Program-made: the position numbers and the translations under genes
Assembly (NCBI GenBank): GCA_020725425.1
Contig: DYFA01000006.1
Location: 1-64,000, forward strand
Reading direction: 5' to 3'
From: Aneurinibacillus sp.
Lineage (GTDB): Bacteria > Bacillota > UBA5301 > DYFA01
Length of the DNA: 64,000 nt
Shown: one piece after another, positions 2,517 through 58,294 of the stretch
Numbering within the stretch: the first letter of the stretch is position 1
How the letters are laid out: every line of letters begins with the position of its first letter
Notes under the pieces: model-generated
The model's database searches: none
What the model saw: the letters and a program-made list of their open reading frames with translations, nothing else
What the model was told of the DNA's origin: nothing

Positions 2517-3368
2517 TCAAGCCTGGCCCTCCAGGACGAGGTTGTCGATCAGCCGGGTCGAACCGAGACGCACGGCCAAAGCTAGGAGGGCCGGGCCGGC
2601 GAGCTTCCCCACCGGCTTGAGATCCGGCAGAGACCTGATCTCCACGTAGTCGATCTCCACCCCGGGTTCGGCCAAGAGCATGCCCCGGACCAACTCCAAT
2701 ATCTTCCCCGCGTCCCGCTCCCCGGACCAGTAGGACTCCTCCGCCGCCTTCAGGCTCCGGGGGATGACAGTAGCCGCCCGCCTCTCCTCGGGGCTCAGGT
2801 AGACGTTGCGGGAACTCATGGCCAGGCCGTCCTCCTCCCGGACCGTGGGTACGGTGACGATTTCCAGGTCCATGTCCAGGTCCTTCACCATCCTCCGGAT
2901 CACCAGGGCCTGCTGGGCGTCCTTCTGGCCGAAGAAGGCCTTGTCCGGCTGGACAATGTGAAAGAGCTTCGTCACCACGGTGGCCACTCCCCGGAAGTGC
3001 CCGGGGCGGGAAAGCCCGCACAGGCACTCGGTGAGGCCCTGGACCTCCACGCAGGTCGAAAACCCCGGCGGGTACATCTCTTCCACGGAAGGATGGAAGA
3101 CGGCGTCCACCCCCGCCTCCTGCGCCATGGCCACGTCCCGTTCCAGGTCCCGGGGGTAGCGGTGGTAATCCTCCCGCGGCCCGAATTGGAGCGGGTTGAC
3201 GAAGATGCTCACCACCACCACGTCGCAGGACGCTCTCGCCCGGCGCATCAGGGCAAGATGCCCTTCGTGGAAATAACCCATGGTGGGTACAAAGCCTATG
3301 CTCTGACTTCGGGAGCGGGCCCGGCGCACGAACTCACGCATCTCCTGGATGGAGCGGCAGACGACCAT
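2517..3368 (-). CDS. panC: Pantothenate synthetase
   Basis: PanC joins pantoate and beta-alanine using ATP, the last step of pantothenate (vitamin B5) synthesis. The 283-residue protein has the nucleotide-binding signature [10 protein letters not shown] at 28-37 and the later MSSRN block that replaces KMSKS in this family. The ATG at 3368 is preceded by GAGGTG six bases upstream and gives the normal length. It follows panB with a 14-base gap, so the two are one operon. No panD is in the window, so the source of beta-alanine must be elsewhere. Confidence 0.95.
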
Positions 3369-3382
3369 GGCCTTCACCTCAT

Positions 3383-4216
3383 TCAGTACAGCTTCGCCAG
3401 GACTTCCTCGGGCAGATCGAAGCTGTGCTCCGCCCCTGGGAAGGCGCCTCCCGTCACTTCGTCCCGGTAGGCCTGCAAGGCCCGGACGATTTCCTGGCGG
3501 AGATCGGCGTAACGCTTGACGAACTTGGGGGTGCGCCCGAGGGAGAGGCCCAGAAGGTCGTGAGTCACCAAGACCTGCCCGTTGCAGTGCGGCCCCGCCC
3601 CGATGCCGATGGTGCATACCTCCACGGTTTCGGTGATCAGCCGGGCCAGGGGAACCGGTATGCACTCCAGGACGATGGCGAAAGCCCCTGCCTGCTGCAG
3701 CGCCCGGGCGTCCTCCAGCAGCCTCCTGGCCTGGGCCTCGTCTTTCCCCTGCACCCGGTAACCCCCGAGCTGATGGACAGACTGGGGGAGCAAGCCCAGG
3801 TGTCCCATCACCGGAATGCCACAGGAGACCAGGGCCCGCACGGTGTCCGCCACCTCCCGGCCGCCTTCCAGCTTCACCGCCTGCGCCCCTCCCTCTTGGA
3901 GGAGGCGCCCGGCGTTGCGGAGCGCCTCCTCCCGGGAGATATGGTAGGACAGGAACGGCAGGTCGCCTATCACCATGGCCCGCTCGACCCCCCGGGCCAC
4001 CGCCTTGGTGTGGCGCACCATGTCGTCCATCGTCACCGGGATGGTGGACTCGTAACCCAAGACCACGTTGCCTAGGGAGTCTCCCACAAGGATGGCCTCG
4101 ATCCCCGCTTCATCGACCATCCTGGCCAGGGGGTAGTCATAGGCCGTGAGCATGGTGATTCTCTGCCCGGTCCGCTTCGCTTCCCGGAAATAGGCCGTAG
4201 TGATCCGCTGGCTCAT
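3383..4216 (-). CDS. panB: 3-methyl-2-oxobutanoate hydroxymethyltransferase
   Basis: PanB adds a hydroxymethyl group from methylene-tetrahydrofolate to ketoisovalerate, giving ketopantoate. The 277-residue TIM-barrel protein has VGDSLG at 44-49 (metal and substrate loop), the [10 protein letters not shown] block and LECIP with the expected glutamate. The ATG at 4216 follows a GGAGGTG Shine-Dalgarno by four bases. An upstream promoter and a terminator-like hairpin in its leader suggest transcription attenuation of panBC. Confidence 0.95.
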
Positions 4217-4248: not shown

Positions 4249-4283
4249 AAAAGAAAAAGCCCTCCGGCAAGCACCCGAAAGGC
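4249..4283 (-). terminator. Attenuator-like terminator in the panB leader
   Basis: On the minus strand GCCTTTCGG (4283-4275) pairs fully, with two G-U pairs, with CCGGAGGGC (4267-4259) around a 7-base loop, followed by a run of nine T in ten bases (4258-4249). It sits between the putative start site near 4333 and the panB start codon at 4216. It could therefore act as a regulated attenuator, or simply as the terminator of the upstream zinc-protein gene. Confidence 0.7.
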
Positions 4284-4333
4284 AGCCTCTCTACCGCCCC
4301 CGTCTCGGTCCTGCTCGGATCCAAGCGGTCCAC
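4284..4333 (-). promoter_or_regulatory. panB leader RNA, candidate pan motif
   Basis: The roughly 50-nt stretch before the hairpin is G-rich and can form a small stem (CTTG/CGAG). A structured RNA, the pan motif, is known upstream of panB in several Firmicutes. Location and the downstream terminator fit that, but I cannot verify the conserved bulged adenosines by eye, so the assignment rests mainly on context. Confidence 0.35.
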
Positions 4334-4339
4334 GGCCTC

Positions 4340-4368
4340 ATTCTAACACCGCCTGTCAGAAGGAACAA
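4340..4368 (-). promoter_or_regulatory. SigA-type promoter for panBC
   Basis: Minus-strand TTGTTC (4368-4363) and TAGAAT (4345-4340) are separated by 17 bases. The -10 matches TATAAT at five of six positions while the -35 is weak (TTG conserved). The predicted start site lies about 115 bases before panB, leaving room for the structured leader. Confidence 0.5.
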
Positions 4369-51327: not shown

Positions 51328-51369
51328 TGGTGTCCCTCCAGAAACAGCCTGACGCTGGGAACGGACAAT

Positions 51370-52000
51370 ATGAAGTGACGGGTGGCAGCCCAGCGAGTAA
51401 ACATTGCGGCTTGAGGTCCAGCTGGTTTTCCCATAAGGCGCACCGGTCGTTGCCGCACCGGCGGTTTCCCTTTGAGCGCCCCTCGGCGGCGTCGCCGCGC
51501 GCCGGGCTGGATTACCACTTAGTCCACACTCTAATCCCCGCAGGGCTTCCTTGATGGAACAGCCTAGGAGATTTCCTCGACGGCGCCGGCCATGCCCTAT
51601 CCTCTGTTGCAGCCCAACTTTCCCGCCGCACCGGCGGACGGCCTTACGCGTCGGCCGGCCGCCTGAACCCGGCGATCCCGACTGGGCCACTTCAAGGCAG
51701 GCTACGCTGCACCCAGCACAGAGCTTAAGTACGACAAGCGCCTGTTACTATGTACCGAAGTGCAGGTTCACGCCCAAGCCGTAGGTTTTCTGGTCACCCC
51801 ACGCACTTGGGTCTCCGCGGGAGGGGGTCAACGCCCGCATGCCATTGCGGATCGCCCCGCACCCTTAACCCCCAGCACCAACCACCGACTGGGCGTCGGC
51901 AGCCAGCACCAGGGACTTCATCGATGTGCCCTTGACGGATCTTTAGGCCCGTCTTCGGACACGGCGGCACCGACTAGAATACTGCGCCACCCATCAAGTG
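51370..52000 (-). ncRNA. ole: OLE RNA (ornate, large, extremophilic)
   Basis: A 748-base gap without a protein gene lies between divPAP2/ispA and oapA/dxs. The minus strand has its own TATAAT promoter. Ten bases near the predicted 5-prime end (51995-51986, GATGGGTGGC) pair completely, with one G-U, with ten bases near the 3-prime end (51386-51377, GCCACCCGTC). This closes a structure of about 619 nt. An internal hairpin (51537-51509, GGATTA/TAATCC arms) and several GC-rich stems are visible. OLE RNAs are about 600 nt, occur in anaerobic and extremophilic Firmicutes, usually lie beside ispA/dxs, and are followed by oapA. All these points agree. The identification rests on size, context and structure, not on an alignment. 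OLE forms membrane complexes with OapA and aids stress tolerance in Bacillus halodurans. Confidence 0.82.
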
Positions 52001-52006
52001 GTTAGT

Positions 52007-56944: not shown

Positions 56945-58294
56945 CTAGTCCTCGGCGAGCACCCGGCGCTGAATGAAGTTCGTGTACACCTCACCCCGCC
57001 GGAAGAAGGCGTTGTCGAGCACTTTCTTGTGGAAGGGGATCGTCGTCGGGATGCCCTCCACCACAAACTCGTCCAGGGCCCGCCGCATCCGCATGATCGC
57101 CTCGTCCCGGGTGTTCCCCCAGGCGATCAGCTTGGCGATCAGGGAGTCGTAGTGCGGCGGGATGGTGTATCCCGGGTAGATCGCGGTGTCCACCCGGATA
57201 CCCGGCCCGCCCGGGAGCACCAGCCGGCCGATCCGGCCGGGGGCGGGGCGGAAGTCGAACTCCGGGTCCTCGGCGTTGATCCGGCACTCGATGGCGTGGC
57301 CCTCGAGGGCGATGTCGACCTGGCCGTAGCCGAGGGGTTCGCCGGCGGCGATGCGGATCTGCTCCTTCACCAGGTCGATTCCGGTGACCAACTCGGTGAC
57401 CGGGTGTTCCACCTGGATGCGGGTGTTCATTTCGATGAAGTAGAAGTTTCCGTGTTTGTCGACCAGGAATTCGACGGTCCCGGCGTTGCTGTAGCCGACC
57501 CGCTTCACGCCGGCCACCGCTACCTCCCCCATCTCCCGTCGCTTCTCGGGGGTGAGGACGGTGGAGGGAGACTCTTCGAGCACCTTCTGGTGGCGCCGCT
57601 GGAGGGAGCAGTCGCGCTCACCCAAGTGCACCGCGTTGCCGTGCTCGTCGGCCAGAATCTGGATTTCGATGTGCCGCGGCTCTTCGACGAACTTCTCTAT
57701 GTAGACCGCCGGGTTCCCGAAGGCCGCCTCCGCCTCGGCCCGGGCAGCCCGGATCGCACTCAGGAGGTCCTTCCGGTTATGGGCAATCCGCATCCCCTTG
57801 CCCCCACCCCCGGCTGAGGCTTTGACGAGCACCGGGTACCCGATCGCCGCGGCGACCTCGACTGCCTCCTTCTCCTCGGTGACCGCCCCCTCACTGCCCG
57901 GGACCACCGGCACACCGGCTGCCGCCATTCTCTTTTTCGCTGCGGCCTTATCGCCCATCTGCTCGATGGCCGAGGCCGAAGGGCCGATGAACTTCAGCTC
58001 GTGAGTCTCGCAGATCTCGGCAAAGTAGCTGTTCTCGGCGAGAAACCCATACCCCGGGTGGATGGCGTCCACCCCGGCGATCACCGCGGCCGAGATGATG
58101 TTCGGGATGTTCAAGTAGCTCTTGGCGGTAGGAGCGGGACCGACGCAGTACGCCTCGTCGGCGTACTTGACGTGGAGCGAGTGGCGGTCTGCCTCGGAAT
58201 AGATGGCCACCGTTCCGATGCCGAGTTCCCGGCAGGCCCGCATCACCCGGACGGCAATCTCCCCGCGGTTGGCCACCAGCACCTTATTGAACAA
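56945..58294 (-). CDS. accC: Biotin carboxylase subunit AccC
   Basis: AccC carboxylates the biotin carrier with bicarbonate and ATP. The 449-residue ATP-grasp protein has the glycine loop [32 protein letters not shown] and [14 protein letters not shown] with catalytic residues. It lies 18 bases downstream of the carboxyltransferase-carrier gene. With that partner it could serve a two-component pyruvate carboxylase as well as acetyl-CoA carboxylase; no accA or accD is in the window. Confidence 0.95.

Follow-up and report, generated by a model that had tools for sequence, protein, structure and literature searches.

The panB-panC leader of an Aneurinibacillus sp. carries a single pan RNA hairpin and is probably a transcription attenuator

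The question raised by this locus is whether the leader in front of the pantothenate biosynthesis genes panB and panC is a regulatory RNA, and of which kind. An earlier note on this stretch of DNA (64 kb at its full length, hereafter the window) had read a promoter, a G-rich leader and a nine-pair terminator before panB, all of which are present in the sequence, and had guessed that the leader belongs to the pan RNA motif. On the minus strand a sigma-A-like promoter (4368-4340) is followed by a bulged hairpin (4328-4300), the terminator (4283-4249) and the panB start codon, with 11 nt between the -10 box and the hairpin and 16 nt between the hairpin and the terminator (Table 1). The conserved hairpin, which the earlier note did not mention, forms the first half of the panB leader itself. 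The assignments of panB, panC and the upstream zinc-finger gene hold in Pfam searches; the latter, a dksA/traR-type gene (zf-dskA_traR), lies upstream of the leader on the same strand, and lspA, lgt and a pseudouridine synthase gene follow downstream of panC.

Table 1 Features of the panB-panC leader region, in window coordinates
Feature	Position	Strand	Evidence and details
-35 box TTGTTC	4363..4368	-	Sequence; weighted promoter score 11.8 jointly with the -10 box
-10 box TAGAAT	4340..4345	-	17-nt spacer to the -35 box
pan RNA hairpin, second-hairpin (H2) type	4300..4328	-	R1 42.2 bits; RF01749 24.0 bits; bulged A's at 4320 and 4303
Candidate antiterminator region	4276..4306	-	H2 3' end and flank against terminator 5' arm; family-level complementarity, 156 loci
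Intrinsic terminator	4249..4283	-	Stem 4283-4259, nine pairs, loop 7, tail TTTTTCTTTT at 4258-4249; strict scan and fold
panB, ketopantoate hydroxymethyltransferase	3383..4216	-	PF02548, 396.9 bits; ATG at 4216, stop at 3383
panC, pantoate-beta-alanine ligase	2517..3368	-	PF02569, 375.7 bits; 14 nt behind panB

The hairpin is 29 nt long and has one bulged A on each side of its stem, and its fold is more stable than expected from shuffled sequences (z -3.9; 1 of 200 shuffles equally stable). The check that the earlier note had proposed, the Rfam model of the pan motif (RF01749), gave 24.0 bits over model positions 60-88 of 92 and did not reach the gathering cut-off of 36.2, because this model describes two hairpins and the window matches the second one alone. 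A single-hairpin model was built without the window. RF01749 was run as a profile search on 398 genomes of the phylum, of which 207 gave a match and 138 a match over the cut-off. Among 90 loci taken from the listed matches over the cut-off, a descriptor found the second hairpin (H2) in 69, and the 63 distinct sequences, all from other genomes, form the alignment (A1) on which the model (R1) is based. The helix of A1 is supported by covariation, with 94.8% of cells paired and two-sided changes at six of 11 pairs, which no shuffle equalled. The descriptor demands both bulged A's, so their constancy within A1 is built in; R1 does not strictly demand them, and they are present in all 177 full-length R1 matches.

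On the window hairpin R1 scores 42.2 bits (E 3.1e-11), which supports the guess of the earlier note. All 24 non-loop letters, both bulged A's included, are identical to the consensus, as they are in 14 others among the 177 full-length H2 sequences. The second-best R1 site of the window (57102-57126, 17.2 bits) was rejected as it has no inner stem, and further places in the genome, at 20.2 bits or less, were rejected as well. When R1 was applied to 80 loci of the nearest panB relatives, H2 was found at E < 0.01 in 53 of them; 54 of the 55 entries with E < 0.01 were used, L117 being the same place as L033. After removal of six duplicates from 185 matches, a set of 179 loci was obtained, which includes the window, is enriched for strong matches and contains related genomes. 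We conclude that the window hairpin is a pan hairpin and a genuine, well-supported representative of an orphan RNA motif; since the RF01749 cut-off was not reached, it is classed here as a lone pan hairpin and not as a full match to that family.

The sequence of H2 is retained even at paired positions, with C4-G27 found in 63 of 63 and U6-G25 in 58 of 63 sequences of A1. The latter pair, a U-G wobble within the middle helix (A1 columns 6 and 25), is also present in 146 of the 177 full-length H2 sequences. Such constancy exceeds what a mere pair would need, and the wobble is possibly a recognition feature.

Pan RNAs are mostly, though not all, tandem hairpins according to Weinberg et al. (2010; PMC2864571), and since that paper says "most", a single hairpin is to be regarded as a minority form and not as a new family. 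At the window locus the usual first hairpin (H1) is absent, and with it the tandem arrangement. In paired loci, H1 is built like H2, with a helix of usually five pairs flanked by two bulged A's on opposite sides. It was recognised in 123 of the 179 loci, in 71 by a strict and in 52 by a general descriptor (with 1.6% and 0.6% false positives in shuffled sequences), and some of the 56 loci without a call have a visible H1 that the descriptors overlooked. As judged from the 110 nt upstream of H2 in the 179 loci, the sequence of H1 is free, even at the inner pairs (UC/GA, CC/GG, GC/GC, UU/AA), unlike the sequence-bound H2. Promoter position also bears on the arrangement: in the 123 loci with H1 the -10 box precedes H1 by a median of 8 nt and H2 by a median of 73 nt, against 11 nt before H2 in the window. 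With a promoter score of at least 11, a -10 box within 30 nt of H2 was found in none of 106 loci with H1 and in six of 35 loci without it. These six single-hairpin loci are the window, L033 from the same class, L086 from a metagenome-assembled genome labelled Chloroflexota, L188, L218 and L239; L188, which has another small hairpin upstream, is the weakest of them. Among seven genomes examined from the class of the window, panB is present in three, in one of them at a contig edge, and both remaining panB genomes, that of the window and that of L033, have the single-hairpin form.

The promoter-like site (TTGTTC-17-TAGAAT) has a weighted score that was matched in 3 of 2000 cases when the 75 nt before the hairpin were shuffled. 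It does not appear in a strict promoter scan because the -35 box agrees at just three of six letters. Transcription is expected to start near 4333, downstream of the -10 box, and the leader that follows is G-rich. The panB reading frame is open in the 5' direction up to a GTG at 4333, but a leader peptide was dropped from consideration, the ribosome binding site GGGAGG with the ATG at 4216 being the likelier start. The terminator has the arms GCCTTTCGG/CCGGAGGGC (4283-4259), followed by the tail TTTTTCTTTT (4258-4249) with T at nine of ten positions, and its fold is more stable than that of shuffled sequences (z -3.2). The strict scan recovered this very site, as the one terminator-like site in 2 kb where 0.9 were expected in shuffles, a count that by itself is no evidence of anything special. 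The stem and tail also resemble ctRNA_p42d (RF00489), at 25.4 bits or half of the cut-off of 50 bits, which we take as a chance resemblance of a terminator; other weak Rfam matches in the window are far under their cut-offs.

An arrangement of this kind recurs in the family. A terminator-like hairpin is found within 140 nt downstream of H2 in 158 of the 179 loci, against 11% of shuffles, at a median distance of 22 nt. The 5' arms of these terminators often read CCTTCCG, CCTTTCG or CCTTCTG, sequences complementary to the H2 3' end and its flank (CGGAAGG, CAGAAGG). Over 156 loci, the duplex of the H2 3' end with its own terminator arm amounts to -9.65 kcal/mol, against -8.56 kcal/mol for GC-binned permuted partners (z -7.7, in a permutation that ignores the kinship of the loci); a value of -8.21 instead of -9.65 kcal/mol stems from different dangling-end settings. 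Reversed arms, used as a control, gave -8.54 kcal/mol, the own arm being better in 99 and worse in 48 of the 156. Compared with its own shuffles, the arm reaches p <= 0.05 in 58 of the 156 loci, so that 98 miss this level singly. In 152 of 158 loci, one or more of the three final H2 letters take part in the duplex. A count by motif class is less clean, with CTTCTG in the arm as cut in 6 of the 26 loci ending in CAG, and 17 classed as 'other'. The family pattern suggests two competing states, one with H2 closed and the terminator formed, the other with the end of H2 opened into an antiterminator. In the G-rich leader of the window the antiterminator duplex, at -11.0 kcal/mol, is not stronger than with shuffled arms (p 0.46). 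Nascent folds of this leader give a seven-pair antiterminator hairpin beside an intact H2, which yields once the terminator is complete; an extra closing helix, seen in a fold begun upstream of the likely start, is doubtful. The antiterminator is compatible with an intact H2 in these folds, so that a coupling of H2 to the switch is putative in the window's genome.

Attenuating riboswitches with terminator/antiterminator platforms consist of a conserved leader structure, followed by a terminator and then by biosynthesis genes. The same order is present in the window, with an intrinsic terminator between a predicted promoter and the gene as in a transcription attenuator, although here the coupling between sensor and switch is presumed. 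A pan-family hairpin behind a predicted promoter, together with an intrinsic terminator before panB, thus points to attenuation, and we consider it likely that the leader is a panB-panC transcription attenuator whose sensor is one H2-type pan hairpin with which the transcript begins at its 5' side. With sufficient pantothenate or CoA, a metabolite or a protein would bind and stabilise the pan hairpin, the terminator would form, and panBC would be switched off. In the unbound state, the terminator's 5' arm may instead be captured by the 3' end of the pan hairpin together with the adjoining downstream nucleotides, which would allow read-through. We infer that the bound pan RNA represents the OFF state.

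What the hairpin binds can be envisaged in two ways. A regulatory protein may be the partner, in which case the single-hairpin leader would be a half-site that still attenuates by the same switch logic, and no riboswitch would be involved; we put the chance of this at a little under even. A dimeric protein was already proposed as the binder by Weinberg et al. (2010; PMC2864571), H2 keeps its sequence at paired positions as a protein site may, and H1 and H2 have the two-bulge build in common, whereas six loci with a lone hairpin make a dimer less necessary. That the pan hairpin is instead an aptamer for a compound of the pantothenate/CoA pathway, and the leader a small riboswitch, seems possible but somewhat unlikely. 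Its compact conserved structure is linked to one pathway in 152 of the 179 loci, an expression platform lies close behind it, and reviews point to CoA as a riboswitch ligand that is missing, but 29 nt with two single-base bulges offer little room for a pocket, and no pan ligand was found in the open-licence literature searched. The stronger statement that the 29-nt hairpin is by itself a complete sensor, which controls panBC by directly binding pantothenate, pantoate, CoA or a derivative, we regard as distinctly unlikely.

Two further explanations do without a functional single-hairpin switch. The hairpin at 4283-4259 could be the terminator of the upstream dksA/traR-type gene, which the earlier note had named as the refuting case, or a constant terminator, with panB unregulated. 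It is situated 96 nt behind the stop of that gene on the same strand, and the strict scan yields no excess of terminators over shuffles. However, the promoter-like site and the conserved pan hairpin intervene between the upstream gene and the terminator, all three elements lying between the zinc-finger gene and panB. In the family, the order of pan hairpin, terminator and pantothenate gene recurs, with pan hairpin and terminator together in 158 of the 179 loci and terminator and gene match both present in 134, and a plain terminator is improbable. Alternatively, a degenerate H1 around 4330-4356 (helix GCGGU/GCCGU) might be the remnant of a decayed tandem pan RNA that is transcribed from further upstream. 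This complementarity can be read in the sequence, and the H1 descriptors do miss real cases, several of the 56 unclassified loci having a visible H1. The putative helix, on the other hand, is without both bulged A's, has almost no linker to H2 and contains the -10 box, and a relaxed H1 score over the 100 nt upstream of the window H2 is no better than in shuffles (p 0.66), while p <= 0.05 was reached in 129 of 178 loci; a decayed tandem is very improbable.

The single-hairpin attenuator that we prefer shares with the pan RNA motif (RF01749), as described in PMC2864571, the two conserved bulged A's, the H2 letters and the site before panB/panC, and differs from it in having one hairpin where two are usual and in scoring under the two-hairpin Rfam cut-off. 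The motif is an orphan in the literature searched, and CoA is called a conspicuously missing riboswitch ligand in two reviews. In the main texts of open-licence papers (including PMC2864571, PMC9971707, PMC10043782, PMC5670726, PMC4342826 and PMC4634765), neither a pan ligand nor a description of the pan expression platform was found, and in PMC11487621 the terms 'riboswitch' and 'pan RNA' do not occur. The window locus is a pan RNA in the less common single-hairpin form and probably serves as a panBC attenuator. A natural leader with one pan hairpin beside its promoter provides a small construct for deciding between metabolite and protein, and the family-wide candidate antiterminator predicts a direction of control that can be tested. 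If the lone hairpin were indeed a complete metabolite sensor, the missing CoA/pantothenate riboswitch class would be represented by a natural aptamer of very small size, and the tandem form would prove to be an elaboration.

Pan RNAs belong to operons with panB, panC or the aspartate decarboxylase gene, and in the window the hairpin precedes panB-panC, with panB as the first gene downstream. A first downstream gene match was obtained in 152 of the 179 pan loci (DUF2520/Rossmann 107, panB 31, panC 14); 17 of the 27 loci without a match had only about 604 nt to search. The Rossmann/DUF2520 protein is thus most often the first behind pan RNAs (107/179, by tblastn; at L033:1632-2531 by Pfam), a position that ties this uncharacterised protein to pantothenate synthesis. 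Neither panD (PF02261) nor DUF2520 (PF10728) was found in the window's genome, which is 96.9% complete; with panB and panC present and panD not found, it is not evident where beta-alanine comes from. Elsewhere in the window, at 51366-52006 on the minus strand, there is a full-length OLE RNA (RF01071; 463 bits, positions 1-616 of 616).
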